Shown one piece after another: positions 4,498 to 44,143 of a DNA stretch of 45,912 nt. Position 1 is the first letter of the stretch. Every line of letters starts with the position of its first letter. Below the pieces are notes generated by a model, which saw only the letters and a program-made list of their open reading frames with translations, was not told the origin of the DNA and did not search any database. The stretch is from Planctomycetota bacterium. GTDB taxonomy: Bacteria; Planctomycetota; Uabimicrobiia; Uabimicrobiales; JABWCH01. The stretch covers positions 1 through 45,912 of the forward strand of contig JAGVGO010000221.1 in NCBI GenBank assembly GCA_020057085.1, given 5' to 3'. A program made the translations under genes and the position numbers.

Positions 4498-5466
4498 ATG
4501 GCAACGAAAATAGTATACCACGACCGTTACAATTTTCCATACAAATTGATGCAAGCTATGTCTTGGGCTCTCGCTATTGGTTCGCTAGGTTTCATTCGCA
4601 ATATCCATCCTTTTATCGGTGACAGATCGCGGCGGGTGCGAGATTTTCTGGTCGCTTCCGGGCGCTTCGCTTGCCAAGACTTTATCGCACCGGAAATGAA
4701 CGAAGAGCTGATTTTATCTTATTTGCAGCCGCAATATCGGGAAATAGTTCACAACAAATTGCTCGTAGCCGGCGCGGTAGAGATTTTTACCCTGCAATTT
4801 TTGCCTTACTCTTTTTTGCGATACCATTTGCTTGAACCGATGCTGCTGGCCAGTTGCGGTACCATCAAGACGGTAGAACTGGCGATGCAGGAAAAGCTGG
4901 CGATCAATTTGGGCGGCGGCTTTCACCATGCTTCATTCTATTCAGGCGGAGGTTTTTGTCTTTACCCGGATATGCCCATTGCGATGAAGGAAATCCGCAA
5001 ACAGTATCCCGGTCTGAAAATCGCCGTACTCGACTGTGATGCGCACCAGGGGAATGGGACAGAACGAGCGTTGGACGAAAACGATAGCACGTTCATGGTA
5101 GACATGTTCAATTGCCAAATCTACCCGCAAGACAGCGATGCCGAAAAAGTTGCCGATGTCGCCGTTCGTTTGAATTTTGGGTGTCGGGATCAAGTGTATT
5201 TGCAAGCACTGCAAACGATAGCGCTGCCCGCTATCGAAAAATTTGCGCCACAGTTGATTATCTATGGAGCCGGTACCGACATTTACGAAAAAGACCCTCT
5301 GGGAGGTATGAACGTCTCGGCTCAAGGCATCATGCAACGAGACAAACTGGTCAAAGATTTTGCCTGTCAACACGATATTCCATTGGCCATGGTGTTGTCA
5401 GGCGGATATCACATAGATTCCGGACGCATCATCGCCGATTCCATCCTGAACAATTTTGTCTTATGA
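4498..5466 (+). CDS. Histone deacetylase-family hydrolase, class IV (HDAC11-like)
   Basis: 322 aa, near the expected family length. Catalytic features are intact: the His-His dyad in GGGFHHA (H143, H144), zinc ligands D181 and H183 in DCDAHQGNGT, the third zinc Asp D261 in GAGTDIYEKDPLGG, and the transition-state Tyr Y304 in SGGYH. The EKDPLGG context is typical of class IV enzymes. Family members remove acetyl or longer acyl groups from lysines or polyamines; bacterial substrates vary and cannot be told from sequence. GGAA precedes the ATG at a normal distance. The end overlaps the radical SAM gene by four bases (ATGA), suggesting stoichiometric co-expression. The protein looks cytoplasmic and enzymatically competent. 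Confidence 0.88.
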   Translation: MATKIVYHDRYNFPYKLMQAMSWALAIGSLGFIRNIHPFIGDRSRRVRDFLVASGRFACQDFIAPEMNEELILSYLQPQYREIVHNKLLVAGAVEIFTLQFLPYSFLRYHLLEPMLLASCGTIKTVELAMQEKLAINLGGGFHHASFYSGGGFCLYPDMPIAMKEIRKQYPGLKIAVLDCDAHQGNGTERALDENDSTFMVDMFNCQIYPQDSDAEKVADVAVRLNFGCRDQVYLQALQTIALPAIEKFAPQLIIYGAGTDIYEKDPLGGMNVSAQGIMQRDKLVKDFACQHDIPLAMVLSGGYHIDSGRIIADSILNNFVL

Positions 5467-9162: not shown

Positions 9163-10042
9163 AGGACACATCACCCTCATTGCTACAGGGCTTATCATGC
9201 CTCTTGCCTTCTTTTTCCATGGCCATATGCGCGATTTTATTTTCACGCTGGGCGTTTCGGGCGTGGTCGGCTGTGCCACCAATGCCATTGCCATTCGTAT
9301 GTTGTTCGATCATATCTACTTGCTGCCGTGGTTGAAGAAATGGCCGCTTCCCTATTCCGGTATTCTCGAAGAACAACGTGAAGAGATTGCCAAGGCTATC
9401 GGCTGGACCGTAGCCAAGAGATTACTTTCCACCGATGCGCTGATGCGTGCCGTAACTGCAGAGCCGTTTCAGGAGGTGATTCGTAGTACTCTCGGCTCTC
9501 GCCTGCGTGAGATTTTGTGTGAACCGGGTTTTCTTGAAGTAGTGAGCCAGGACATCGGCAAACATGCCTGCGCGTTCATTGGCAGCGACCTGTTCCGACT
9601 CAAATTGCAGCAGGCGTTGTACCGCCATCTGGGCTGGGTCGGCAGTATCCTGGTAGAAGTGAAAAACGTGCGCGAACGGGACAAAATCACAACGCAGATG
9701 CAAAGAGAGCTGAAGCAAGTGGTCGCTTATATGTGCCAAGATGAATCTTTCCGGCTTGCCGTACGTGATTTTCTCAAAAACTTGCCGATCAAATTTTACG
9801 ATACGCAAACCCCTCTCAAAGAAGGCGTGCAGCGTTGTATCGCCGTGCTGGTAAGAGATCTCCTGGAGCAGGTAGACATCGAGAAGATCGTGGCAGATGA
9901 GGTGCGTTCATTCCCGCCGGGCGCTCTGTCCAGCATCATCATCAAGATCACCGCCGAAAATCTCGACTGGCTGGAGGTGTGGGGCGGAGTGCTCGGTGTG
10001 CTGGTCGGAGGCTTGTTCTGGTGCCTTGGTAAACTTGTATGA
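9131..10042 (+). CDS. DUF445 (YheB/YjiN-type) membrane protein
   Basis: 303 aa. An N-terminal hydrophobic hairpin contains the family hallmark GVSGVVGCATNAIAIRMLF followed by YLLPWL and GILEEQREEIAKAIG. A long helical middle part has DUF445-type repeats, and a last membrane segment (about 282-300, GVLGVLVGGLFWCLG) closes the protein. The biochemical role of DUF445 is unknown; some members have been linked to membrane or lipid homeostasis. The start overlaps rsmA. An ATG at 9155 (MTKGHI) would also serve and shortens the overlap. Confidence 0.8.
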   Translation: MSFVQLEKMTKGHITLIATGLIMPLAFFFHGHMRDFIFTLGVSGVVGCATNAIAIRMLFDHIYLLPWLKKWPLPYSGILEEQREEIAKAIGWTVAKRLLSTDALMRAVTAEPFQEVIRSTLGSRLREILCEPGFLEVVSQDIGKHACAFIGSDLFRLKLQQALYRHLGWVGSILVEVKNVRERDKITTQMQRELKQVVAYMCQDESFRLAVRDFLKNLPIKFYDTQTPLKEGVQRCIAVLVRDLLEQVDIEKIVADEVRSFPPGALSSIIIKITAENLDWLEVWGGVLGVLVGGLFWCLGKLV

Positions 10043-10058
10043 AAGGCACATAAAAGAT

Positions 10059-11549
10059 ATGATAACGCTCAAAGATTTAGAAGCCTATCTGTGGGGAGCA
10101 GCCAATCTCCTACGAGGTATGATTGATGCGGCCGATTTCAAGCAGTATATATTCCCCATGCTTTTTTACAAACGCCTCTGTGATGTGTACGATGAAGAGT
10201 ATGATTTAGCTTTGAAGGAATCCAATGGTAGTTTAGAGTTTGCTGAATATGAAGAGAATCACCGTTTCCAAATACCCAAAGGGTACCACTGGAATGACAT
10301 CCGTAAAGAAACCAAAGATGTTGGCTTGAAATTCCAAAAGGCTCTCCGAGAGATTGAGAAAAAGAACGCAAAACTACACGGTATTTTTGGAGACGCACAA
10401 TGGTCGAACAAAAATCGCTTTACGGATGAGAAAATGGTAGACCTGATAGACCATTTTTCTTCGTTGAAACTTACGCTGGAAAACGTGCCCGCAGATGAAT
10501 TCGGAACGGCTTATGAATATCTGATCAAAAAATTTGCCGATGACAGTGGGCATACGGCAGCAGAATTTTATACCAACCGCACGGTGGTGCAACTGATGAC
10601 TCTGATTCTGGCTCCACAGCCAGCCGAAGCCATTTATGACCCTACGTGTGGGACGGGCGGAATGTTGCTCAACTGTGTGCTGCAACTGAAAAACGCTGGT
10701 AAAGAATACCGCAATCTGGTATTGCAGGGGCAGGAATTGAATCTGATTACCTCGGCAATTGCACGCATGAACATGATCATCCACGATATTGATGATTTCG
10801 AAATTGCCCAGGGAGATACGCTGGATAATCCAGCCTTTATCAAAGAAGATAAGCTGGAAACCTTCAACATTATTCTGGCCAATCCACCGTATTCTGTCAA
10901 ACGATGGAACCGCAAGAAATGGCTGAAAGACCCCTATGGCAGAAACATTTGGGGAACACCTCCCCAAGGCTGCGCAGACTATGCCTTTATCCAGCACATT
11001 TACCATAGCCTGGACAAACAAAACGGACGTGCCGCAATTTTACTGCCCCATGGAATTTTATTTCGAGACACTGAGGCGGAGATACGGCGTAAGATGGTGG
11101 AAATGGACGTGGTAGATGCCGTAATCGGTTTAGGCCCGAACCTGTTTTACAATTCCTCGATGGAATCTTGTGTGCTGATACTGCGGAACAATAAGCCTGT
11201 CCAGCGCATGGGGAAAATTCTGTTCATCAATGCAGTGGGCGAAGTACACAAAGAACGCTCCGAAAGTTGTCTGGAAAAAGAACATATAGAAAGAATAGTG
11301 AATGCGTATCGCAGCTACCAGGATATAGAGGCTTTCGCAAAAGTTGTCACGAAAGAGCAGGTGTTGAGCAATTCGGGCAATTTGAATATTCGTCTCTACA
11401 CAAGCCCGGATGAAACCAACCACAAAGCCGATTTGCCCCAGTTATACAACGAGTTACAAAGAAGCTCGGAAAACATGCAAAAGACGATGGAAGATTTGCT
11501 TCGTAAGTTAAAGGAGTTTGGGGTTGGAAAGAAAAATAGTTGTAAGTGA
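10059..11549 (+). CDS. hsdM: Type I restriction-modification DNA methyltransferase subunit HsdM
   Basis: 496 aa. Transfers a methyl group from SAM to N6 of adenine within the bipartite site chosen by HsdS. The N-terminal helical domain (LWGAANLLRG, FPMLFYKRLCDVYDEEY) is followed by the target-adenine methylase core: motif I at DPTCGTGG (D194 onward) and the catalytic NPPY at residues 275-278. I start it at the ATG opening MITLKDLEAYLWG; longer readings back to 9897 run inside the DUF445 gene. The last residues (GVGKKNSCK) differ from the expected HsdM end because a toxin-antitoxin-like cassette joins here; the ancestral ending (GVGTERL-stop) seems preserved at 12409-12432. It begins 16 nt after the DUF445 stop. 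Confidence 0.93.
   Translation: MITLKDLEAYLWGAANLLRGMIDAADFKQYIFPMLFYKRLCDVYDEEYDLALKESNGSLEFAEYEENHRFQIPKGYHWNDIRKETKDVGLKFQKALREIEKKNAKLHGIFGDAQWSNKNRFTDEKMVDLIDHFSSLKLTLENVPADEFGTAYEYLIKKFADDSGHTAAEFYTNRTVVQLMTLILAPQPAEAIYDPTCGTGGMLLNCVLQLKNAGKEYRNLVLQGQELNLITSAIARMNMIIHDIDDFEIAQGDTLDNPAFIKEDKLETFNIILANPPYSVKRWNRKKWLKDPYGRNIWGTPPQGCADYAFIQHIYHSLDKQNGRAAILLPHGILFRDTEAEIRRKMVEMDVVDAVIGLGPNLFYNSSMESCVLILRNNKPVQRMGKILFINAVGEVHKERSESCLEKEHIERIVNAYRSYQDIEAFAKVVTKEQVLSNSGNLNIRLYTSPDETNHKADLPQLYNELQRSSENMQKTMEDLLRKLKEFGVGKKNSCK
11505..11529 (+). repeat. Junction repeat, left copy (ribosome-binding site and TTG start)
   Basis: 25 nt containing AAAGGAG and the TTG that starts the PIN gene. 22 of the 25 bases are identical to 12394-12418, where the same offset gives the hsdS start. 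The two copies bracket the PIN/RHH cassette. Confidence 0.75.
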
Positions 11550-12090
11550 TACAGGACCATTAATCTCTGTATTTCAAAGTAAACAAGTTAAATTATTGCA
11601 ATCGTTGTACGACAAAGTTTGCATTCCAATCACAACACTGCCCGAATACATTGGGCAAGTAGAAAAGACAACCATTGACTGGCTTATCAGCATTGGTTAT
11701 GTGGATGTGTGCGAATTGACACTTTCTGAAAAATCTATGGCTTTTGAGATTGCAAAAGAAATTGCGGAACATCCTCTAAGCAAGAATAAACTCGCAGAAG
11801 ATCACGACCCAGAAGCTCAGGCTATCGTATTAGCCAAGAGGCAAACATTCAAAGCATGCGAGTTACTTATGGACGAGCTTGTTGCCAGAGAGATTGCCAA
11901 AAAACATGATGTCCCAATTATAGGATTTCCAGGCATTCTAATTCGTTGCTGTAAACATGGTATGATTAGTGCTGAACAGGTAAGAGATACACTGCTCATT
12001 TGTCAATCGTTGGGAACACATTATGCAACGGATTTCATCCAAAACATCTATAAAAAACTGAAGGAGGAACAGCCCAATGAATCCAGATAA
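11524..12090 (+). CDS. PIN-domain (DUF3368-type) nuclease, probable toxin
   Basis: 188 aa from the TTG seven bases after AAAGGAG (a TTG two codons earlier is also possible). The fold is that of PIN ribonucleases: an opening strand with the first acid in VVSDTGPLI (Asp9), a central DHDPEAQAIVLA with further acids, then LLMDELVAREIA followed by VPIIGFPGILI and GMISAEQV, the usual DUF3368 order. Such proteins cleave RNA using metal ions and act as toxins with small DNA-binding antitoxins. The downstream RHH gene overlaps it by 14 nt, in toxin-first order. It overlaps the hsdM end by 26 nt. Function is inferred from family and pairing; the RNA target is unknown. Confidence 0.75.
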   Translation: MERKIVVSDTGPLISVFQSKQVKLLQSLYDKVCIPITTLPEYIGQVEKTTIDWLISIGYVDVCELTLSEKSMAFEIAKEIAEHPLSKNKLAEDHDPEAQAIVLAKRQTFKACELLMDELVAREIAKKHDVPIIGFPGILIRCCKHGMISAEQVRDTLLICQSLGTHYATDFIQNIYKKLKEEQPNESR

Positions 12091-12325
12091 AAACAAAGAA
12101 TTATTGATGAATTCTGTGGAGGAAGCTTTTAAGGATGCTGACGATTCAGAAAAAAGATGGCGAGAGTGGGAACATTCGTATGCTCTAAAGACTATTTCCA
12201 TTAAGCTACCAGAATCCGACTATAAGGTTCTGGAAAACTTAGCACGCGAACAACACAAGACAGCACCGCAGTTAGTGCAGGCACTTGTCCACAATGTTCT
12301 CTCCACTTTTCTTGGAATGCGATGA
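12077..12325 (+). CDS. Probable ribbon-helix-helix antitoxin of the PIN toxin
   Basis: 82 aa. A charged N-terminal half rich in Glu, Asp and Lys (about 1-35) would suit a toxin-neutralising tail. Then ALKTISIKLPESDYKVLENLAREQ gives a basic beta-strand and two helices typical of RHH/CopG-type DNA binding. DUF3368 toxins are more often paired with UPF0175 proteins, so this partner is somewhat unusual. GGAGGAA precedes the ATG inside the toxin gene. Its stop overlaps the next small frame (ATGA). Self-repression of the cassette is the expected role. Confidence 0.65.
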   Translation: MNPDKNKELLMNSVEEAFKDADDSEKRWREWEHSYALKTISIKLPESDYKVLENLAREQHKTAPQLVQALVHNVLSTFLGMR

Positions 12326-12432
12326 TTTACAAAATACAGTTTGAAAAACTCGCACCATTGGTGCGAAAAATAGCGCGGTCAGAAAAAACAACAAAGCTAA
12401 AGGAGATCGGGGTTGGAACTGAAAGGCTTTGA
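12322..12432 (+). CDS. 36-residue frame carrying a relic of the HsdM C-terminus
   Basis: Opens with an ATG overlapping the antitoxin stop and ends at a TGA 17 nt inside hsdS. Its final residues KLKEIGVGTERL continue the HsdM pattern (HsdM itself ends KLKEFGVGKKNSCK after the insertion). The frame is therefore best read as the displaced original 3' end of hsdM joined to cassette sequence. It may still be translated to feed ribosomes into hsdS. Confidence 0.4.
   Translation: MIYKIQFEKLAPLVRKIARSEKTTKLKEIGVGTERL
12350..12366. promoter_or_regulatory. Palindrome just after the antitoxin gene
   Basis: TCGCACCA-T-TGGTGCGA is a perfect 8-bp inverted repeat 25 nt downstream of the antitoxin stop. 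It could be an operator for an RHH dimer, since RHH proteins bind short palindromes, or a trace of the insertion event. No T-run follows, so it is not a terminator. Confidence 0.4.
12394..12418 (+). repeat. Junction repeat, right copy (ribosome-binding site and TTG start of hsdS)
   Basis: Partner of 11505-11529, with differences at only three positions. AAAGGAG (12399-12405) and the TTG at 12413 fall at the same offsets as in the left copy. Confidence 0.75.
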
Positions 12433-12988
12433 CAAAACTAGATGGAAAAAGATTTGTTTTAAAGAAATGGCTGAAAATATCTCCGAACGAGTAGACCCCA
12501 AGGATGCGGAATTTGATATTTATATAGGACTAGAACATCTTGACCCCGAAAGTTTAAAAATTATTCGATATGGAAAACCACAAGAGGTCATTGGGACAAA
12601 GTTAAAAGTTAAGAAAGGTGATATTATTTTTGGAAAGCGCAGGGCATATCAAAGAAAAGTCGCTGTGGCAGATTTTGATTGTATTTGCTCGGCTCATGCA
12701 ATGGTGCTAAGAGCCAAGCCTGATTATGTGATAGCTGAATTTCTACCTTATTTCATGCAATCAGATATGTTTATGAATTGTGCTGTACAAATATCCGAGG
12801 GTTCATTATCACCTACAATCAAATGGAAAACACTCGCATCACAAAAATTTATCATCCCTACAAAAACAGAACAGAAGCTGATAGCAGATACTCTTTACCA
12901 GATCGAAGATACCATCGAACAGACCAGGCACCACCAAGCCACTCTCCGCAATTTTAAAAAAGGATTGCTGGCTGAGTGGGTTGGGTAG
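12413..12988 (+). CDS. hsdS: Type I restriction-modification specificity subunit HsdS, half-length (single recognition domain)
   Basis: 191 aa, about half the usual ~400. One target-recognition domain is present, with the typical IGLEHLDPES, KVKKGDIIFGKRRAYQRKVAVA, CSAHAMVLRA and LSPTIKWKTLASQKFIIP blocks. It ends with one conserved helix (EQKLIADTLYQIEDTIEQTRHHQATLRNF is split by the usual bend). Half-size HsdS proteins can dimerise and then recognise a symmetric bipartite site. The TTG start lies seven bases after AAAGGAG. The end overlaps no gene; hsdR starts 26 nt later. No second HsdS half is in the window. Confidence 0.82.
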   Translation: MELKGFDKTRWKKICFKEMAENISERVDPKDAEFDIYIGLEHLDPESLKIIRYGKPQEVIGTKLKVKKGDIIFGKRRAYQRKVAVADFDCICSAHAMVLRAKPDYVIAEFLPYFMQSDMFMNCAVQISEGSLSPTIKWKTLASQKFIIPTKTEQKLIADTLYQIEDTIEQTRHHQATLRNFKKGLLAEWVG

Positions 12989-13014
12989 ATTTTGGGCACT
13001 TAAAGGGAAACGCT

Positions 13015-15993
13015 ATGGCAACCTTTAATGAAAAAAACAGTGTCGAATCTTTTGTGATCCGAGAGTTGACGGGCGTGGAATTGCTGTCTCCCGATCTTAT
13101 ACGGGAAGCAAAAACTTATTTTACCGGCAAAGCAATATGGCAATATGTACCTGCCGCCCAATTGCCTCGCAAAACCTCGGATATTTTGGTGGAGGCTATT
13201 CTGGTAGATGCCTTGAAAAGGCTCAATCCTGCAATCCAGGAACAACCGGATCGTGCGGAAGAGATTATCCACAAACTGCGTGGAATTTTGCTCACAGCGC
13301 AGCACATTGGTCTGGTTCGTGCCAATGAGCAGTTTAGCGAATGGTTACGCGGTGAGAAAACCATGCCCTATGGTGCCAATCAACAACATCTTCCCATTCG
13401 CTTGATAGATTTCGAGAATCCCGGCAATAACAGTTTTTTTGTCACCAATCAATATACTGTCACCACCCATGTAGAAAAAGTGCCCGACGTGGTTTTGCTG
13501 GTCAATGGAATTCCACTGGTTGTTGGCGAATTGAAAACGCCCGTCCGTCCAGCCGTGAGCTGGTATGATGGTGCTGTGGATATTCATGATGATTATGAAC
13601 GCACCATTCCCGCACTGTTTGTCCCGAATGTATTTTCTTTCACCACAGAGGGCAAGTATTTTCGTTACGGTTCTGTTCGTATGCCACTAGAAATTTGGGG
13701 GCCTTGGCGAGAAGAAATATCCAGAAAAGAACAGGAGTCAATATCGGAAGTATTTACAGCAGTGGGGCTAGAGGAAGTAAGCAAGGCCATTCATGCCATG
13801 CTCAACCCTTGTGTGGTGTTGGATATTTTACAACATTTCGCTATTTTTGCCACGGGCAGACAAAATCGGAAAATCAAGATTATTTGTCGTTACCAGCAAT
13901 ATGAGGCTGCCAATCGAATTGTGCAAAGAGTGGTTGCGGGAAAAGTGGATCGCGGGTTACTCTGGCATTTCCAGGGTTCTGGAAAATCATTGCTGATGGT
14001 ATTTGCAGCACAAAAATTACGTTCTTCCCCGGTTCTCAACAATCCCACGGTTTTGATTGTAGTTGATCGTACCGACCTCGACACTCAAATCACCGCGACA
14101 TTTAACGCGAGTGAAATCCCTAATATTGTTACTACCGATAGCCGTGAGGAATTGCAACGGTTGCTGCAAGAAGACACGCGCAAGATCATCATTACCATGA
14201 TCCACAAGTTTGGAGAAATCACTGGTGTCTTGAATGACCGCCGAAATATTATTGTGTTGGTGGACGAAGCTCATCGCACACAAGAAGGCGATCTGGGACG
14301 TAAGATGCGAAATGCCTTGCCCAACGCATTTCTTTTTGGGCTTACAGGAACACCAATCAACCGCAGGGACAGAAATACATTTTATGCCTTTGGCGCGGAA
14401 CAAGACGAGAGCGGATATCTCAGTAGATACTCTTTTCAACAATCTATAGAGGATCATGCGACATTGCCTCTCCATTTCGAACCAAGATTGCTATCTGTTC
14501 ATGTTGACAAAGAACAAATAGATTTTGAATTTGCCGAACTAACCCGAAATCTTAATGATGAAGACAGACGAGAACTGTCTAAACATGCTGCCCAGATGGC
14601 TAATTTTATCAAGGCTCCAGAAAGAATAGAGAAGATTGTCCATGACATTGCAAAACATTACAGTGAAAAAATCCAACCCACCGGTTTAAAGGCGCAAATT
14701 GTATGCTATGACCGAGAAACCTGTGTTTTGTACAAGAAAGCGTTGGATCAAATCATTGCTCCCGAAGCCAGCCAGATTGTAATGAGTGTGTCTGACGAGG
14801 AATATAAGGCTTATAAATTGAGCAAAGACGGAGAGGAAAAACTGTTAGACCTGTTTCGAGATCCCTCTAGCCAGCTCAAGTTTTTGATTGTGACGAATAA
14901 ACTTCTTGCCGGTTTCGACGCTCCAATTTTGCAAACCATGTATTTGGACAAGCCGCTGAAAGATCATAACCTGCTTCAAGGAATTTGCCGGACGAACCGC
15001 CCATATAAAGGCAAATCTTATGGACTGATAGTGGATTATTTCGGGGTTTTCGATGATGTCGCCCGTGCGTTAGACTTTGACGAAAAGGCTGTCCGGCAGG
15101 CTGTAACCAATATCAAGCAGTTAAAAGACGCCTTGCAACAGGCTATAGATAATTGTCTAGCATATTTCCTCAATATTGACAGGGGTATAGCTGATTATAA
15201 TGCCCTATTGGAAGCTCAGAAATGTCTGGACACCGATGAAAAACGGGACGCATTTGCCAGCGACTTCACTTATCTGGAACGCCACTGGGAAGCGATTTCC
15301 CCCGATCCGTTTTTAAACCCTTATGAAAGCGATTATAAATGGCTTTCTAATGTATACCAATCCATCAGACCAGTAAACGAAACAGGCCGTTTAATCTGGC
15401 ACGCTTTGGGCGCAAAGACTATTCAACTAATCCATAAAAATATTCATGTCCGTGAGGTCAATGATAAGCTGGAAACCGTTATTGTGAATGCGGATGTCCT
15501 AGACGAATTCATCAAAAACCAGAGTCCTAAAAACATAAAAGAGATAGAGATCGAAATCTCCAAACGAATTGCCCGACATCCGAGTAATCCTAAGTTTATT
15601 GCCCTCAGCGAACGCCTCCAAAAACTAAAAGAACAGGCTGAACAGGGTATTATCAACAGCATCGAATTTCTAAAATACCTGATCAAAATCGCGGAAGATT
15701 TATTAAAGGCAGAAAAAGAAGAGATCGGCAAGGAAGAGCAAAAGTCTGCAAAAACAGCATTAACTGAACTATTTAATAGCGTTAAGACATCCAATACTCC
15801 TAAAATTGTAGAAAATATAGTCAACGATATTGATAAAATTGTCAGAATCGTTCGTTTTGAAGGGTGGCAAAATACGACCAAGGGTCAAAGGGAGGTAAAA
15901 CAGGGTTTGCGAAAGACGTTATTGAAATACAAATTGCACCAGGATCAGGATTTGTTTGAAAGAGCGTACAAATACATCGAACAATATTATTGA
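13015..15993 (+). CDS. hsdR: Type I restriction endonuclease translocase subunit HsdR
   Basis: 992 aa from the ATG after AAAGGGAAA; the in-frame GTG at 12976 lies inside hsdS. The N-terminal PD-(D/E)xK nuclease domain shows VPDVVLLVNGIPLVVGELK (E172, K174). The SF2 translocase follows, with Walker A QGSGKS (320-325), DEAH box VDEAH (417-420), motif III FGLTGTP and motif VI-type QGICRTNRPY. A long C-terminal helical region would bind the methylase complex. With HsdM and HsdS it cuts unmodified DNA at a distance after ATP-driven translocation. All key residues are intact, so the system looks active. The gene is visibly more AT-rich than the flanking housekeeping genes, in keeping with horizontal transfer. 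Confidence 0.93.
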   Translation: MATFNEKNSVESFVIRELTGVELLSPDLIREAKTYFTGKAIWQYVPAAQLPRKTSDILVEAILVDALKRLNPAIQEQPDRAEEIIHKLRGILLTAQHIGLVRANEQFSEWLRGEKTMPYGANQQHLPIRLIDFENPGNNSFFVTNQYTVTTHVEKVPDVVLLVNGIPLVVGELKTPVRPAVSWYDGAVDIHDDYERTIPALFVPNVFSFTTEGKYFRYGSVRMPLEIWGPWREEISRKEQESISEVFTAVGLEEVSKAIHAMLNPCVVLDILQHFAIFATGRQNRKIKIICRYQQYEAANRIVQRVVAGKVDRGLLWHFQGSGKSLLMVFAAQKLRSSPVLNNPTVLIVVDRTDLDTQITATFNASEIPNIVTTDSREELQRLLQEDTRKIIITMIHKFGEITGVLNDRRNIIVLVDEAHRTQEGDLGRKMRNALPNAFLFGLTGTPINRRDRNTFYAFGAEQDESGYLSRYSFQQSIEDHATLPLHFEPRLLSVHVDKEQIDFEFAELTRNLNDEDRRELSKHAAQMANFIKAPERIEKIVHDIAKHYSEKIQPTGLKAQIVCYDRETCVLYKKALDQIIAPEASQIVMSVSDEEYKAYKLSKDGEEKLLDLFRDPSSQLKFLIVTNKLLAGFDAPILQTMYLDKPLKDHNLLQGICRTNRPYKGKSYGLIVDYFGVFDDVARALDFDEKAVRQAVTNIKQLKDALQQAIDNCLAYFLNIDRGIADYNALLEAQKCLDTDEKRDAFASDFTYLERHWEAISPDPFLNPYESDYKWLSNVYQSIRPVNETGRLIWHALGAKTIQLIHKNIHVREVNDKLETVIVNADVLDEFIKNQSPKNIKEIEIEISKRIARHPSNPKFIALSERLQKLKEQAEQGIINSIEFLKYLIKIAEDLLKAEKEEIGKEEQKSAKTALTELFNSVKTSNTPKIVENIVNDIDKIVRIVRFEGWQNTTKGQREVKQGLRKTLLKYKLHQDQDLFERAYKYIEQYY

Positions 15994-16074: not shown

Positions 16075-16144
16075 GTAGTCGCAGGCTTTATGCCTGCGCA
16101 AATGTACAAGCTGCCGCGAACGCGGGCATAAAGCCCGCGACTAC
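16075..16144. repeat. Nested palindromic repeat (GTAGTCGCAGGC family), copy 1
   Basis: The left arm opens GTAGTCGCAGGCTTTATGCC and the right arm is its near-perfect inverted complement. Each arm also folds on itself (GCAGGC/GCCTGC). A second copy with the same outline is at 44073-44143. It is non-coding and sits between hsdR and the next operon. Confidence 0.7.
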
Positions 16145-16274: not shown

Positions 16275-16820
16275 ATGGAGAGAATAAAACGCAAAATTCT
16301 TATCAAAAACATTCTCTATTATGTAAAATGCTTTGGCGGCCTCTGCCTTTTATATTTTGTCTGTAAGGTATGGGGTACCTATGATTATGTATGGGTTCCG
16401 CTTGACAATTTCCAAATGACGCCCCGTTTCAAGCCCAAAGAGTTCTACTGGGGCAAACGCATTTCGGACGTTTCAACATTGAAACACAACAATGTGATTT
16501 ATTACAACTACCCTCACCGCCTGACCGGTAGCCGCAATGAATGTCTGTTCTTTGCAAGAGTCTTAGGTCTTCCGGGTGACCGCCTTGCTATCAAAGATGG
16601 CAAGGTATATCGCAACGGCAACATAGTGGAAGAAGTGTACCTCGATCCTACAAGCATCAAGAAAGAGACGCTGCCTGAACTACTGATTCCGCGTGATTAT
16701 GTCTACGTCCTGAACGACAATCGCATGAAAATGGGGCCGGAAATTTATTTCCGCGATTCCCGTTCCTGGGGTCCGCTCTTGGGAAACTGTCTCATCGGGG
16801 TGTTCATGGACGATAAATAG
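16275..16820 (+). CDS. Signal peptidase I-like membrane protein lacking the catalytic Ser and Lys
   Basis: 181 aa. An N-terminal membrane anchor (about 12-33) is followed by a type I signal peptidase (S26) fold: the substrate-box region VPLDNFQMTPRF, the ARVLGLPGDRLAIKDGKVYRNG strand pair, and the VLNDNR...RDSRSWGPLLGNCLIG box. In active enzymes the first box reads SMxPT and the second starts with KRV. Here the Ser position is Gln47 and the Lys position is Ala94, so peptide-bond hydrolysis by the usual dyad is impossible. AAAGGA precedes the ATG. It heads a cluster with a TPR protein and two other membrane proteins and may act as a structural or substrate-holding subunit. Confidence 0.78.
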   Translation: MERIKRKILIKNILYYVKCFGGLCLLYFVCKVWGTYDYVWVPLDNFQMTPRFKPKEFYWGKRISDVSTLKHNNVIYYNYPHRLTGSRNECLFFARVLGLPGDRLAIKDGKVYRNGNIVEEVYLDPTSIKKETLPELLIPRDYVYVLNDNRMKMGPEIYFRDSRSWGPLLGNCLIGVFMDDK

Positions 16821-16841
16821 AAGTGAGTTAGGAGCAATGTT

Positions 16842-18401
16842 ATGTTGTTATCGCGTGTCAAATTTTCCACACTTGCCGTGTGTGAACTGATTGCTATCGT
16901 TATTTTTCTGCCACTCTCTATCAGCTTGTGGTCTTCCGGCTGGCGTCACATGAAGTATTATCAACAATACGAAAAAGCACTTCTGTATTACAATGCATGC
17001 CAGCCGGCGGAGGTACTGGTAGCGCTAGAAAAAGCCGAAAAAAACAGAACTACCATTTCTTTGTATATCCTCAAAGGGAACGTGTTGATCGAGCAAGGTA
17101 AATTTGCTGAAGCCATGAGAGTGTATGAGGAGCTGATTGAATTCACCGATGATACCAAGATTCCCAAACTGGGGGTCGCCGTGTGCAAGATGTATCTCTT
17201 GGGTGACAAAGGAAGCGAGACAACCACCGGTCTGTATCAATTGGAAAAAGAGGTCAAGGAAATAGTCCGTGATAATCCGGAATTTAGCGATGCCGCCGCA
17301 TTGTTAGGGAATATCTACTTGCAGGAAGCATTGTCTTTCCGCAAAGCAGGCAAGCAGGATCGTTTTCTCACTAGCTTGGAGCTTGCTCTCAAAGAGTTTA
17401 ACCGTGCCGAAACACCGCGCGAGGAAAATTGGCGGCCACCTTCCCGTAATGCCCTGTGTTCTCTATATCTGGGCAAAGCTTATACTCTCTATGAAAAAAG
17501 CATGGAAAGATGGAACTCCCTGGTCCATCCGGCATTGCCTTCACCTGAAACAAGAGCGATCAGTGAGTTGCTTTATGAAGCTATTCAGTGCCTGCGCAAA
17601 GCCTTTGCTTTGCGTGTACCCCATCGAGAGATCATGAGTAACTGTCTGATATTATATGGACACCTGCTAGGGCTGCCGTGGCTTGAAACAAGCAGCGACA
17701 GCAAGAGCAATTTGCACAGACAGTCTCTGATCAAGGAGATACCTGATCTTCAACAAGCCATTGACAGGTTCAAAGCACATGCCCGCTGGCTGCGCGAAGG
17801 CCCTGAATATTTGGAAAAATGGCAGCTCGACGGTAGAAATTATGAAATCATAGAGCGTCCTATGCACTACGGCCTAAGTATTTCTTATTTTTACGTCGGC
17901 GAGGAAGCAAAAGGTACAGAGTTGATGTATCCGCTGGTACAAAGCAGCCCTGCGGTGGTATTCGAAAGCATTCTTGAAATAAATGCCCACCAGGCTACCA
18001 AAGCGTATCTACAACGTAAAAAGAATGTAGCAGATGCGAACTTTCTTAATACAGACATTTCGATTAGTACGTGGAACCAATATCAGCGTGAAATTGAGCG
18101 ATGGAAAAAAGTCAATGACAATAAACCTAGCCTGCCGCAATTGATCTTGCTCAATAATTATTTGATAATGGTTTTCTGGCAGCGTGAGCCGGCGGCAACG
18201 GTCGGTGATTTAGCCAAGTACGTACAAAATTTCGCCAATCAGGTCCCTGCGGCCAAAGTCATTGTGGGATGCCAGCAAGACCCGGTCAATGCCATACAGG
18301 TGCTGCGACACAATCTGTTTATGATCTACAGTGGTCTGCCGACTCCTTACAAGGAAAATGCCGGACAATTCGCTTCCTACCGGCTTACTTTTAGCAAATA
18401 G
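16842..18401 (+). CDS. Membrane-anchored TPR-type protein, function unknown
   Basis: 519 aa. One N-terminal membrane segment (about 10-31) is followed by a soluble region of helix-turn-helix repeats: LYILKGNVLIEQGKFAEAMRVYEELI near residue 72 is a clear TPR, and others are more diverged. The topology predicts the repeats outside the cytoplasmic membrane. AGGAG precedes the ATG, 21 nt after the signal-peptidase-like gene. I recognise no catalytic motif. The pairing suggests that it holds proteins for, or assembles with, the pseudo-peptidase. Confidence 0.65.
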   Translation: MLLSRVKFSTLAVCELIAIVIFLPLSISLWSSGWRHMKYYQQYEKALLYYNACQPAEVLVALEKAEKNRTTISLYILKGNVLIEQGKFAEAMRVYEELIEFTDDTKIPKLGVAVCKMYLLGDKGSETTTGLYQLEKEVKEIVRDNPEFSDAAALLGNIYLQEALSFRKAGKQDRFLTSLELALKEFNRAETPREENWRPPSRNALCSLYLGKAYTLYEKSMERWNSLVHPALPSPETRAISELLYEAIQCLRKAFALRVPHREIMSNCLILYGHLLGLPWLETSSDSKSNLHRQSLIKEIPDLQQAIDRFKAHARWLREGPEYLEKWQLDGRNYEIIERPMHYGLSISYFYVGEEAKGTELMYPLVQSSPAVVFESILEINAHQATKAYLQRKKNVADANFLNTDISISTWNQYQREIERWKKVNDNKPSLPQLILLNNYLIMVFWQREPAATVGDLAKYVQNFANQVPAAKVIVGCQQDPVNAIQVLRHNLFMIYSGLPTPYKENAGQFASYRLTFSK

Positions 18402-18418
18402 CGAGCAAAGGGAAATTT

Positions 18419-18736
18419 ATGATCTGCATGAATTGCAAAAAACAAACGCCTGATGCCGAAGTGCATTGCCGCCATTGTGGCGTCAGGCTAGACCTCACTT
18501 TCGATGAAATTTCAGCAAAACTGGGTAAACAGATACACAGCGAACAGCAAGACAGAACCGAGGCATTTATCCGCTGGGTACTCTTATTTGTGATGATCCT
18601 GGTGTGCGGTGGGGTGATTTTTAAAAGTTTTTGGGCAACGCCGCCTGTCACCACGTTGACGCCAGGTTACATGCCGTTGCACACGATACCCATCCAGTGG
18701 CAGCCGATACACCAGCCTCTGGTCATTCGTGAATAG
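18419..18736 (+). CDS. Small zinc-ribbon membrane protein
   Basis: 105 aa. An N-terminal zinc ribbon is formed by C3, C6, C17 and C20 (CMNC, CRHC). A polar stretch follows, then one membrane helix (about 48-70, FIRWVLLFVMILVCGGVIF) and a Pro-rich tail outside. Zinc ribbon plus one membrane pass is a frequent layout in Planctomycetota proteins of unknown role. AAAGGGA precedes the ATG, 17 nt after the TPR gene. Confidence 0.65.
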   Translation: MICMNCKKQTPDAEVHCRHCGVRLDLTFDEISAKLGKQIHSEQQDRTEAFIRWVLLFVMILVCGGVIFKSFWATPPVTTLTPGYMPLHTIPIQWQPIHQPLVIRE

Positions 18737-18743
18737 GCAGTCC

Positions 18744-18911
18744 ATGTGCTTCGATGTGCGTGAATGTTTGTTGCAACTGAAGGCGCTGTTTCGTTTGTGT
18801 TTACTGCGCCCGAACAGTTGGCGCGAAGTTGTACTCGGCTTTCTGACAATTTTGCTACTGCCGTTGGTAATTCTCGTGTGCGTGGCTGCCAATATCAAAA
18901 AGCGGGCATAG
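18744..18911 (+). CDS. Tiny membrane protein, 55 aa
   Basis: Starts at the ATG seven bases after the AGG that overlaps the upstream stop; a GTG at 18729 would add five residues. It has an amphipathic Leu/Arg-rich first half and one strong membrane helix (VVLGFLTILLLPLVILVCVAA), ending in KKRA. No family is recognised. Its place at the end of the cluster and the lack of any gap argue that it is real. Confidence 0.45.
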   Translation: MCFDVRECLLQLKALFRLCLLRPNSWREVVLGFLTILLLPLVILVCVAANIKKRA

Positions 18912-18993: not shown

Positions 18994-20892
18994 ATGAAAG
19001 TCAGGATTTTACTCGCCCTTTTGCTGGCATTGGCGTTTTGTCTGCCGGCTCAAGAAGTTCAGGTGTTGGCTTACAACGTATTCTTACGTCCTGGCCTCAT
19101 CGGCATGGACGACTACAAGGCCGAGCGATTTGCCGAGTTGGTCGAAGCGGTGCGTCCCTATGATATTATCGGCCTCTCGGAAGTGTTCGACGACGACCGG
19201 CGCGCCGAACTCAAGAGTCGCCTGCGCAACACCCATCCCTATGCCATAGACCCGCCCGAATCGGACGATCCGTTTTTGCAGGACGGCGGCATTACTTTTT
19301 TCAGCCGCTACCCTGTGGTGTTCAGCAAAAAGACCATTTACAAGGATGCCACTGGCTGGGACGAGTGTTCGGAAAAGGGGGCGATCTTTGCCCGTCTGGA
19401 ACTGCCCAACCGGCAAACCTGGGAGGTGGTACTCAGCCATACCCAAGCCGACAATGAAAATTTTGGCATACGGCAGAAACAGTTCAACCAGTTGCACAAT
19501 TTCATCCAACAGTATCGCCAGAATGTGCCGCTTTTCATCATTGGCGACCTCAACGTCATCGGCGACACCACGAGCGAATATCCTGATATGCTGGTTCGCC
19601 TTGGCTCACCGAAGGATGTCTATCGCTATCTCAACAGTGACCCAGGCTATACCTGGAATGGCCCGGAAAACCCTCTCACCGAGAGCAGCAGCGTGGAACG
19701 GCTCGACTACATCCTGCACCGCGCAGGCAGTGAAGCGGTCGGCTTGTCGCGTAGCTATATCAATCGTTTTCCGATGGCGCATCCGGTGGGAAAAGCCAAA
19801 TACATGTCGGACCACTACGGCCTCGTGGCAGTGATCACTCCAGGCAGCAGCAGGCAGAGCCAGTCGGACACGGTAAATTTCGTGGTAAATCTGCGCCTCA
19901 CTGCGGCGCTTACGCGCGAGTTGCAAGGCAGCGTGAGCCTGCGCGACGCCTTGGGTGGCACGAGTAGACAGGCGTTCACGCTGGCCGCCGGTGACACCGT
20001 CAAAACGCTTGTTTTTGCGCGTGTTCCTGCCGGACAATTGCTTCTCACCTGTATGAGCGAAGACCGTCTGATGCATGCCAGGAGCGAGGCCAGGCTGGCG
20101 GCAACCACCTTGCGTCTGCCTTACGGCCAGGCCGGCTACCGCTATCGTTGTCCGGCACACTATGCCGGGCAGCCTGTGCAGATAACTTTGCAAGGCGAGT
20201 TATGGTATCGGGACAAAGTCGAGGCGGGTGAAAAGCTGGAGTTGAATGAACTGCCGGAAGGCACTTTCGAGGAAACGATCCAGGTAGGCAACCGTCGCCT
20301 GCTGCGCGACATCTTGCTCTTGGACGGTGAAACCTATATGAGCGGCGAATCGCGCGGCACCCTTCTTTTCTCCGGTATAGCACCGGTATCGGCAAGTGAA
20401 ATTCTGCTGTGCCCTGAGACGCAGGGTAATACCAAGTATGCACGCGCCTTTGTCCAGAAGGGCAGGTTCTATCTCGCCGAAGTCAACCCCGGCGACTACC
20501 GTTTGCTGGTGCGAGAGAACGACGGGGCACGCCGTCGCTTGAGCCTTTTGCCCTTATCGCTCAACAACAACGTGAGCGACTTCGACCTGCCGGCCCAGCT
20601 TACGCCGCAGGAAAACGGTAAAAACTACCTGCTGGTGGCTGCCGCACCTCTGGCACGCATGATACGCATCGCGCACGGCGAAGCTACCCTGCCTCTCTAC
20701 CAAGAACGCAGCGATTTTCTGACACTTGGTAAATTTTCCTGGCTGCCGCTCGCATCCGACACTGAACTGTTGTTGAGCGATTACCCTGCAGGCACTTACC
20801 GCATTGGACTTTATCTGGCCGACGGCGAAAAGTGGCGGCTCTCTTCCACCAGCACTCTGGAGATGAAGGGCGGTATCTACCAGATCAAATAG
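18994..20892 (+). CDS. Secreted endonuclease/exonuclease/phosphatase-family phosphodiesterase, neutral sphingomyelinase-like
   Basis: 632 aa from the ATG opening a signal peptide (MKVRILLALLLALAFCLPA); GGGGGGAA precedes it. Residues about 22-290 are an EEP domain with its metal and catalytic residues: Asn in AYNVFLRPG, Glu in GLSEVF, the SHTQADNENFG block, GDLNVIGD, SVERLDYIL and the terminal SDHYGL. SDH and the loop sizes resemble bacterial sphingomyelinase C, which splits sphingomyelin into ceramide and phosphocholine; other phosphodiester substrates are possible. Residues 300-632 are beta-rich repeats (SVSLRDALGG, GTLLFSGIA, NPGDYRLLVREN), probably binding modules. It was likely exported to the periplasm or outside. 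It is followed by a hairpin against the convergent operon. Confidence 0.82.
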   Translation: MKVRILLALLLALAFCLPAQEVQVLAYNVFLRPGLIGMDDYKAERFAELVEAVRPYDIIGLSEVFDDDRRAELKSRLRNTHPYAIDPPESDDPFLQDGGITFFSRYPVVFSKKTIYKDATGWDECSEKGAIFARLELPNRQTWEVVLSHTQADNENFGIRQKQFNQLHNFIQQYRQNVPLFIIGDLNVIGDTTSEYPDMLVRLGSPKDVYRYLNSDPGYTWNGPENPLTESSSVERLDYILHRAGSEAVGLSRSYINRFPMAHPVGKAKYMSDHYGLVAVITPGSSRQSQSDTVNFVVNLRLTAALTRELQGSVSLRDALGGTSRQAFTLAAGDTVKTLVFARVPAGQLLLTCMSEDRLMHARSEARLAATTLRLPYGQAGYRYRCPAHYAGQPVQITLQGELWYRDKVEAGEKLELNELPEGTFEETIQVGNRRLLRDILLLDGETYMSGESRGTLLFSGIAPVSASEILLCPETQGNTKYARAFVQKGRFYLAEVNPGDYRLLVRENDGARRRLSLLPLSLNNNVSDFDLPAQLTPQENGKNYLLVAAAPLARMIRIAHGEATLPLYQERSDFLTLGKFSWLPLASDTELLLSDYPAGTYRIGLYLADGEKWRLSSTSTLEMKGGIYQIK

Positions 20893-29485: not shown

Positions 29486-31321
29486 ATGAAGATATGGTAT
29501 TGGTTACTTGTGTTCTGTATGATGGGCTGTTCCTCGCAAAGTGGCAGCGTGCGTTCGACAGAATCTCCGGCATACAAGCAAACTTCGGCCAGCATCGATG
29601 CGCTGGAAAATGAACAAAAAGCATGGATGCGCCTGGAAATGGCGGCCGAAAATTATAGCAAATCTCCTACTCCTGCCAATCAACAGGAGTACACAAGCAA
29701 AAAACAGGAACTCATAGACCTGCGTGCACAAAATCATGCACAAGGTCTGGAAGTCGGGCCTGCATTGCCAACTCAGCTATCGCCGGCCCAGGAGATCGCC
29801 GTATTGAGAAAGAACCATGATGCCGTATCAGAACGCGTGCGCGAGTTGACACAAAAAAGGAACGACATCGTCAATGCCGAAATGGGAGTAGTGGCCAAAG
29901 AAAAACCTGTGGTGCAGACGGCCGCGACAAAACAAGACCGCGAGCCGGTTCATGTCACTGCTCCGCCGGCGAACAACCAGACGAGTCAGCCTGTTGTGCC
30001 TGCGACTATAGCGCGGCAACCAGATGTGAAAGACAACAAAAAGAGTGAAAGTGTTCCTGGTTTGCCAAAGAATATCGAAATTGCGGTGGAGGCCGTCCAG
30101 CCAACTCCCAAGACGCCTGCTGTGGAAATGCCAGTGGAAATGCCGGTGGAGGCCGTCCAGCCCACACCCAAGACGCCCGATGTGGAAATGCCGGTGGAGG
30201 TCGTCCAGCCAACTCCCAAGACGCCTGCTGTGGAAATGCCAGTGGAAATGCCAGTGGAGGTCGTCCAGCCCACACCCAAGACGCCTGCTGTGGAAATGCC
30301 AGTGGAAATGCCGGTGGAGGTCGTCCAGCCAACTCCCAAGACGCCCGATGTGGAAATGCCGGTGGAGGTCGTCCAGCCAACTCCCAAGACGCCCGATGTG
30401 GAAATGCCGGTGGAGGTCGTCCAGCCAACTCCCAAAACGCCCGATGCGGAAATGCCGGTAACTACGGTGAAACCGAAGCCAAAAACGCCCAAGACGCCGC
30501 CTGCCAAGATAAAGCCGGCTTTGCAGCCACCTGTTCCTGATGAAACAGAAAGCACGTTGGACACGAAAGACATTGTCAAATATCGAGTTCTCGTGATCGC
30601 CAATAACAAATACAAAGATCGTGCGGAGAAATGGGTACCGCTAAAAACACCTCAGGCCAATGCCAAGGGCTTGATCGCTGTGTTGCGTCAGAAATATGGC
30701 GTCAGTGCTGATCGGCTGCAATATATAACCGATGCCACACGTAAGAAAATGGAAAGCGCATTTGCCACACTTTACCAGCAGGTCAGGCATAACGAAAGCG
30801 TAGTGATCTGTTATTTCGGGCATGGGTATTACGACAGTGACAACGACGAAAGCTTCTGGATTTCTGTAGATGTCAAGGACGACAGCGAAAACCATTTCGT
30901 GTCGAACAGCTGGCTGCGTGAGTGGATTGTGAAGATCGGACAAAAAGCGCAGCATGTGCTATTGATCGCCGGGACTGCCTTTGCGCCCACCATGGTCATC
31001 CGCAAAGCAAAAGGTGACATGGGGGAAGACGGTGAAAAAATGTTGGCCAAAAGTTGCCAGGTGTTAGCCGCTGGCGAAAGCGAATACCAAGACCAGAAAT
31101 ACCAAAGAAACTCGCAGTCACGATTTGTTTATCTCCTGGTGCAGGAACTCAAACGCGGCCGCACCATGTCGGCGAGCCAACTAGCCACAGCCATGAAAAA
31201 GACGTTGAAAACATTGCAATTTGGCGTATGGAAAGGAAGCCAGGATCGAGGTGGTGAGTTTCTTTTTCGCGCGCCCATGGAAGAAGCTACGGGCGAAAAC
31301 GAAGAAAGCCAGGAGGAGTGA
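29486..31321 (+). CDS. Repeat-bearing lipoprotein with a caspase-fold (C14) domain lacking the catalytic Cys
   Basis: 611 aa. A lipoprotein-like signal (LLVFCMMGC, then SSQ) would anchor it to a membrane. Residues about 30-180 are helical; about 201-324 are seven Val-Glu-Pro-rich repeats. From residue 366 (YRVLVIANNKYKD) a caspase-type domain follows: DADRLQ-type strand order, the catalytic His446 in CYFGHGYYD, and the strand HVLLIAGTAFAP. Active family members read DSCxSG in that strand; here the Asp is Gly496 and the nucleophile is Ala498. It should therefore not cleave peptides. A binding or sensor role is more likely. It has its own promoter and no neighbour in the same direction until the MBL gene. 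Confidence 0.78.
   Translation: MKIWYWLLVFCMMGCSSQSGSVRSTESPAYKQTSASIDALENEQKAWMRLEMAAENYSKSPTPANQQEYTSKKQELIDLRAQNHAQGLEVGPALPTQLSPAQEIAVLRKNHDAVSERVRELTQKRNDIVNAEMGVVAKEKPVVQTAATKQDREPVHVTAPPANNQTSQPVVPATIARQPDVKDNKKSESVPGLPKNIEIAVEAVQPTPKTPAVEMPVEMPVEAVQPTPKTPDVEMPVEVVQPTPKTPAVEMPVEMPVEVVQPTPKTPAVEMPVEMPVEVVQPTPKTPDVEMPVEVVQPTPKTPDVEMPVEVVQPTPKTPDAEMPVTTVKPKPKTPKTPPAKIKPALQPPVPDETESTLDTKDIVKYRVLVIANNKYKDRAEKWVPLKTPQANAKGLIAVLRQKYGVSADRLQYITDATRKKMESAFATLYQQVRHNESVVICYFGHGYYDSDNDESFWISVDVKDDSENHFVSNSWLREWIVKIGQKAQHVLLIAGTAFAPTMVIRKAKGDMGEDGEKMLAKSCQVLAAGESEYQDQKYQRNSQSRFVYLLVQELKRGRTMSASQLATAMKKTLKTLQFGVWKGSQDRGGEFLFRAPMEEATGENEESQEE
30086..30457 (+). repeat. In-frame tandem repeats, seven units of 48 or 60 bp
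   Basis: Units encode VEVVQPTPKTPDVEMP (16 aa) or the same plus VEMP (20 aa), in the order 20-16-20-20-16-16-16. DNA identity between units is very high, which implies recent expansion. The stretch is likely an extended linker and a hot spot for length change. Confidence 0.9.
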
Positions 31322-44072: not shown

Positions 44073-44143
44073 GTAGCCGCAACCTTTACGGTTGCGCCGC
44101 GATTTCTAAAACATGACGACGCAGGCATAAAGCCTGCGACTAC
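44073..44143. repeat. Nested palindromic repeat (GTAGTCGCAGGC family), copy 2
   Basis: The right arm inverted reads GTAGTCGCAGGCTTTATGCC, identical to the left arm of the copy at 16075. The left arm is a diverged GTAGCCGCAACCTTTACGG. Length and spacing match copy 1. Confidence 0.7.

Follow-up and report, generated by a model that had tools for sequence, protein, structure and literature searches.

Signal peptidases are essential enzymes, and their annotation is automatic. Most experimental work on pseudo-signal peptidases concerns SipA of streptococcal pili. A further known arrangement is that of LapB/YciM, which combines cytoplasmic tetratricopeptide repeats (TPR) and a rubredoxin-type metal domain in one chain. 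In SipA of Streptococcus pyogenes (LepA; PDB 4N31, 4K8W), Asp48 and Gly85 replace the catalytic pair; SipA functions without either replaced residue, has a conserved cleft and is essential for pilus polymerization (PMC4049620). Here we describe a pseudo-signal peptidase gene, A, and the three genes that follow it, B (TPR-type), C (zinc ribbon) and D (a small membrane protein), at positions 16275-18911 of a 45,912-nt stretch of Planctomycetota DNA (contig JAGVGO010000221.1, assembly GCA_020057085.1), hereafter the window. We find that A retains the signal-peptidase-I fold without the catalytic dyad and that A, B and C form a conserved module.

The source genome of the window (59% complete, 3.7 Mb) belongs to the same planctomycetotal order as Candidatus Uabimicrobium amorphum, a phagocytosis-like bacterium. 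The envelopes of Planctomycetota are unusual and, to our knowledge, few envelope machines have been described in this phylum.

Results

Gene A (16275..16820, plus strand) encodes a 181-amino-acid (aa) protein that scores 50.9 bits against the Pfam model Peptidase_S26 (PF10502; cut-off 22.9) and 65 bits against the NCBIfam model sigpep_I_bact (TIGR02227, "signal peptidase I"; cut-off 47). Against the TraF conjugative signal peptidase model (TIGR02771) it reaches 13.2 bits, below the cut-off of 100.25. An AlphaFold2 model of A built with 63 sequences (predicted local distance difference test score, pLDDT, 92.3) consists of an N-terminal helix, with the transmembrane segment at about residues 15-35, followed by a mostly-beta signal-peptidase-I-fold domain. 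In a Foldseek search with this model, S. aureus SpsB ranked first (E-value 5.8e-8), followed by E. coli LepB and S. pyogenes SipA (E-value 3.9e-6), with target-normalized template-modeling scores of 0.72-0.78.

In an alignment with E. coli LepB, Gln47 of A (codon CAA, 16413..16415, plus strand) lies opposite the catalytic Ser and Ala94 (codon GCA, 16554..16556, plus strand) opposite the catalytic Lys, numbered S91/K146 in the 324-aa E. coli record and Ser90/Lys145 in the literature. This bears out an earlier note on the window, made from the sequence alone, which had named both substitutions. Of the hallmarks of a type I signal peptidase (S26A), A has the fold and boxes B-E and lacks the catalytic Ser of box B and the catalytic Lys of box D, so that a signal-peptidase-I fold without the catalytic dyad is well supported. 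Because A scores above the NCBIfam cut-off for "signal peptidase I", it is likely to be misannotated as active, and a database label to that effect is probably wrong. The lineage of dead signal peptidases as a whole passes or approaches this model.

We first aligned 14 homologues of A from 59 related genomes and then widened the sampling with a profile of C over 392 Planctomycetota genomes, giving 63 homologues. The position of the general-base Lys is occupied by Gly (31), Ala (21), Ser (10) or Phe (1), and by Lys in none. The position of the catalytic Ser varies freely in the 62 homologues compared there (Q, E, D, S, A, R, L, Y, G, F and others), and the six that keep Ser each lack Lys. Among the most divergent families box B cannot be aligned with certainty, which makes the lysine column the firmer of the two lines of evidence. 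Close relatives with an intact Ser and Lys, which the earlier note regarded as the observation that would speak against a non-proteolytic role, were looked for among these homologues and none was found.

The same columns bear on the idea that A cleaves proteins by means of other catalytic residues. Its fold is intact, and about 38 of 62 homologues have a polar residue (Q/E/D/S) at the Ser-equivalent site. However, a wide range of residues occurs at the Ser site and the Lys site holds only small or hydrophobic ones, so that we see no alternative conserved nucleophile/base pair, and the equivalent residues of SipA are dispensable (PMC4049620). We therefore regard an alternative protease as very improbable. 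Dozens of families that lack the dyad nevertheless retain the open frame, the fold and most of the boxes, which supports selection on A for a non-proteolytic role, as the earlier note had proposed.

The motifs of box C, box E and, apart from its Lys, box D are kept in the window's order and in several other families. The expectation that the remaining boxes are well kept thus held within the order and failed in some families, with Arg150 and Arg163 each kept in 35 of the 63 homologues. Several families show variation in box B and at sites surrounding the former active site, as would be anticipated if the S26 domain were an inert structural module that holds B and C at the membrane, its groove having no role. 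Since boxes C, D and E are kept as described, we consider an inert domain quite unlikely.

As a control, we examined the remaining S26 proteins found in 12 of the genomes that carry the module. These mostly keep Ser...Lys (SxSM...KR), and the housekeeping S26 protein of the source genome keeps the dyad (IPTSSMEPT / FLKRLIGLPGE). Among the few exceptions, those at loci L003, L167 and L168 look like further degenerate S26 proteins and the rest carry other substitutions. In a tree of A and the canonical paralogues, 62 of 63 pseudo-peptidases fall on one side with weak support (73/73), and that of locus L055 falls among the canonical proteins. From this tree, a single loss of the dyad in the A lineage appears likely, though it is not proved.

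The presence of canonical Ser/Lys signal peptidases in the same genomes, together with the fold that A shares with them, would fit a role for A in regulating the housekeeping signal peptidase, in which it competes for or presents chosen signal peptides and B and C serve as client-selecting adaptors. Dead paralogues are often decoys of active enzymes. However, the canonical genes were found on other contigs or far off, with no genetic link to the cluster, and we regard this type of regulation as somewhat unlikely.

We also observed another pseudo-S26 gene in family f47, in which Lys is replaced by Ser (RMMSRVVGLPGD), at L181 4678-5301 and at G059:C1 near 1268400. A PilM-like gene lies a few kb away from it (PilM_2 confirmed in L180).

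The four open reading frames (ORFs) lie on one strand, separated by 21, 17 and 7 bp, and B, C and D each encode a transmembrane helix, confirming the earlier description of closely spaced membrane-protein genes in one direction. Gene B (16842..18401, plus strand) encodes a 519-aa protein with an N-terminal transmembrane helix and a TPR-type helical solenoid. Gene C (18419..18736, plus strand) encodes a 105-aa protein with an N-terminal CxxC...CxxC zinc ribbon, one transmembrane helix and a short C-terminal tail. Gene D (18744..18911, plus strand) encodes a 55-aa protein with a single transmembrane helix and a conserved KALFRLC-x-x-PNSWRE motif. The ATG at 18744 is its likely start, as homologues start at the same point and the GTG at 18729 would overlap C. 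Promoter and terminator scans of the cluster gave scores no better than those of shuffles.

Just upstream of A, at 16075-16144, is a palindromic repeat, GTAGTCGC(A/G)GGCTTTATGCC..., with a half copy at 44124-44143. It has 14 half-sites in the source genome, compared to no match for a control with the pattern reversed. It folds well (z = -4.7) and resembles repetitive extragenic palindromes or miniature inverted-repeat transposable elements. Directly after D, at 18994-20892, is a gene for a secreted protein of the endonuclease/exonuclease/phosphatase fold, weakly similar to sphingomyelin phosphodiesterase (62.7 bits, below the cut-off of 248). This gene is not conserved beside the cluster in relatives.

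All of the genomes from the same order (G001-G005) carry B-type and C-type genes downstream of A in the same orientation. Of the 66 loci with a strong match to C, 62 have a same-strand A at 0.5-4 kb upstream, with a B-type ORF filling the interval; in the remaining four, the contig stops 0.6-2.1 kb upstream of C. Genes beyond the module differ between loci. D follows C in only six loci, has a detached copy on another contig in G001 and was not found in G002. The earlier note also named a lack of gene-order conservation as speaking against its reading. Of the four-gene arrangement, the A-B-C part is conserved far beyond the taxonomic order and D is not. Because of this distribution of D, the conserved core, which is well supported, comprises the three genes A-B-C, and the lineage-specific D is accessory to it.

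A refined C profile separates the C of the module (E-value 3.5e-13 or better) from background zinc ribbons (1.7e-11 or worse) and places the module in 70 of the 392 sampled Planctomycetota genomes, under 28 family labels. Candidatus Uabimicrobium amorphum, a culturable bacterium, is among the carriers and has all four genes. The A and C distance matrices correlate (Mantel r 0.75, 0/1000 permutations), in keeping with inheritance of the genes as a set. This distribution was sampled within Planctomycetota; a narrower C profile run over all genome contigs returned five order-level loci only, all from Planctomycetota. The defence library PADLOC gave no match to A-D, and the phage library PHROG gave one weak, unnamed match to A. 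With tblastn, C had no match in plasmids and A none in phages, and we therefore see no sign of a mobile element. In about 16 loci, a divergently transcribed gene for a HEAT-repeat protein with a lipoprotein-like N-terminus lies beside A.

The TPR matches of B in the window are sub-threshold, and its homologues give significant ones. In an all-helical AlphaFold2 model (pLDDT 81.6), the transmembrane helix of B runs into the TPR solenoid, and Foldseek returned generic TPR superhelices only.

In C, the four Cys are invariant in 62 homologues and the CxxC pair plus transmembrane helix is found in 61 of these. Lys and Arg are more frequent before than after the helix (53 vs 3), from which the zinc ribbon is predicted to lie inside and the tail outside. 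Further C-terminal extensions occur in other families. In family f47 (L101, L102, L106 and other loci), C continues into a squalene-hopene-cyclase-like toroid that is predicted to lie outside the membrane, and in family f11 it bears a different, shorter extension with QKPDGSF-type motifs.

The four invariant Cys ahead of the transmembrane helix and the charge bias for an N-in orientation would suit a transmembrane sensor, in which free peptides or stalled pre-proteins outside would be detected by B and by the groove of A, and the cytoplasmic zinc ribbon of C would pass the signal inward. Response-regulator genes adjoin the module in L048 and L052. However, this neighborhood is not general, and domain scans of C and its homologues found no recognizable signaling or DNA-binding domain. 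We consider a sensor unlikely.

Within the source genome, the only other non-housekeeping S26 gene found (L179 4425-5465, G000:C2) encodes an N-terminal zinc ribbon, several transmembrane helices and an S26 domain in which Lys is replaced by Asp (VIDRILGVAGD). No full-length relative was found in the 59 related genomes. Like A and C, this protein pairs a degenerate S26 domain with a zinc ribbon, here in one chain; unlike the module, it has several transmembrane helices and no TPR partner was seen. This singleton fusion suggests that a zinc ribbon and a pseudo-S26 domain can act as one unit.

Elsewhere in the window, type I restriction-modification genes occupy 9897-15993 and comprise an N6-methylase-like M, a single-domain S (191 aa) and R. 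Between M and S are two small genes, one of which (11518-12090) matches PADLOC PDC-S70 (E-value 2e-19); the other is at 12077-12325. A caspase-domain (C14) protein is encoded at 29486-31321, with a region of VEMPVE(A/V)VQPTPKTP repeats ahead of the domain, and a histone-deacetylase-family protein at 4498-5466, where its gene adjoins one for a zinc-ribbon protein.

Discussion

We tentatively favor the reading that A-B-C(-D) is a Planctomycetota envelope module built on a membrane-anchored, probably periplasmic pseudo-peptidase, which would act as a peptide-binding scaffold or chaperone in the manner of SipA but with other partners. The fixed gene order and the L179 fusion of a zinc ribbon to a pseudo-S26 domain suggest that A, B and C may form a physical membrane complex; we infer both this complex and its mechanism. 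We hypothesize that A would sit in the membrane with its S26 domain in the periplasm, where its groove would bind, without cutting it, a stretch of an exported or membrane protein. The TPR solenoid of B would dock the client or a partner, and C would span the membrane, with the zinc ribbon in the cytoplasm and the tail, or a larger toroid in some families, outside. Together they might serve, without a sortase, as a scaffold or chaperone for the assembly or handling of envelope proteins. The broader proposal of a phylum-wide, sortase-independent envelope machine in which the three proteins jointly capture exported or membrane proteins uncut is somewhat less probable, and we put it forward with more reserve.

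Several observations weigh against this scaffold or chaperone reading. In some families conserved residues of boxes D and E are replaced (Arg95 to Trp/Tyr, Arg150 to His/Pro), and the peptide groove may not be intact in every family. The topology of B is ambiguous by charge bias (19 vs 15); we took its N-terminus to be inside and the TPR outside, in keeping with the orientation of A and C. The correlation between the A and C distance matrices speaks for shared inheritance and not for contact. Sortase (PF04203) was not found in 12 genomes with the module, by a search that detected positive controls elsewhere, and the client must therefore differ from the sortase pilin of SipA. Finally, peptide binding by SipA itself was not detected in vitro (PMC4049620).

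If the broader proposal of a phylum-wide machine is true, the module would be a novel type of complex that handles pre-proteins in Gram-negative bacteria. The presence of a pseudo-signal peptidase in an operon with TPR and zinc-ribbon genes in about 28 Planctomycetota families shows that the signal peptidase fold was recruited to non-proteolytic work in Gram-negative bacteria too, and the module offers a defined three-gene target in this phylum. We found no description of the A-B-C cluster, its partners or its spread in Planctomycetota in the open-access literature, which leaves out most subscription papers and preprints. The pseudo-signal peptidase concept is already known; the three-gene A-B-C system is what we found without a published description.

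Compared to known systems, A resembles LepB and SpsB (PF10502, TIGR02227) in fold, transmembrane anchor, box order and scores above both cut-offs, and differs from them in that Ser and Lys are missing, and missing as a pair in all homologues. Unlike in LapB/YciM, the TPR (B) and the zinc ribbon (C) are encoded by separate genes. Like SipA, which the A family profile matches at an E-value of 3.9e-21, A is a membrane-anchored protein of the signal-peptidase-I fold in which both Ser and Lys are replaced, here by Gln47 and Ala94. Whereas SipA belongs to a Gram-positive sortase-pilus operon, A is found in Gram-negative Planctomycetota with TPR and zinc-ribbon membrane partners.
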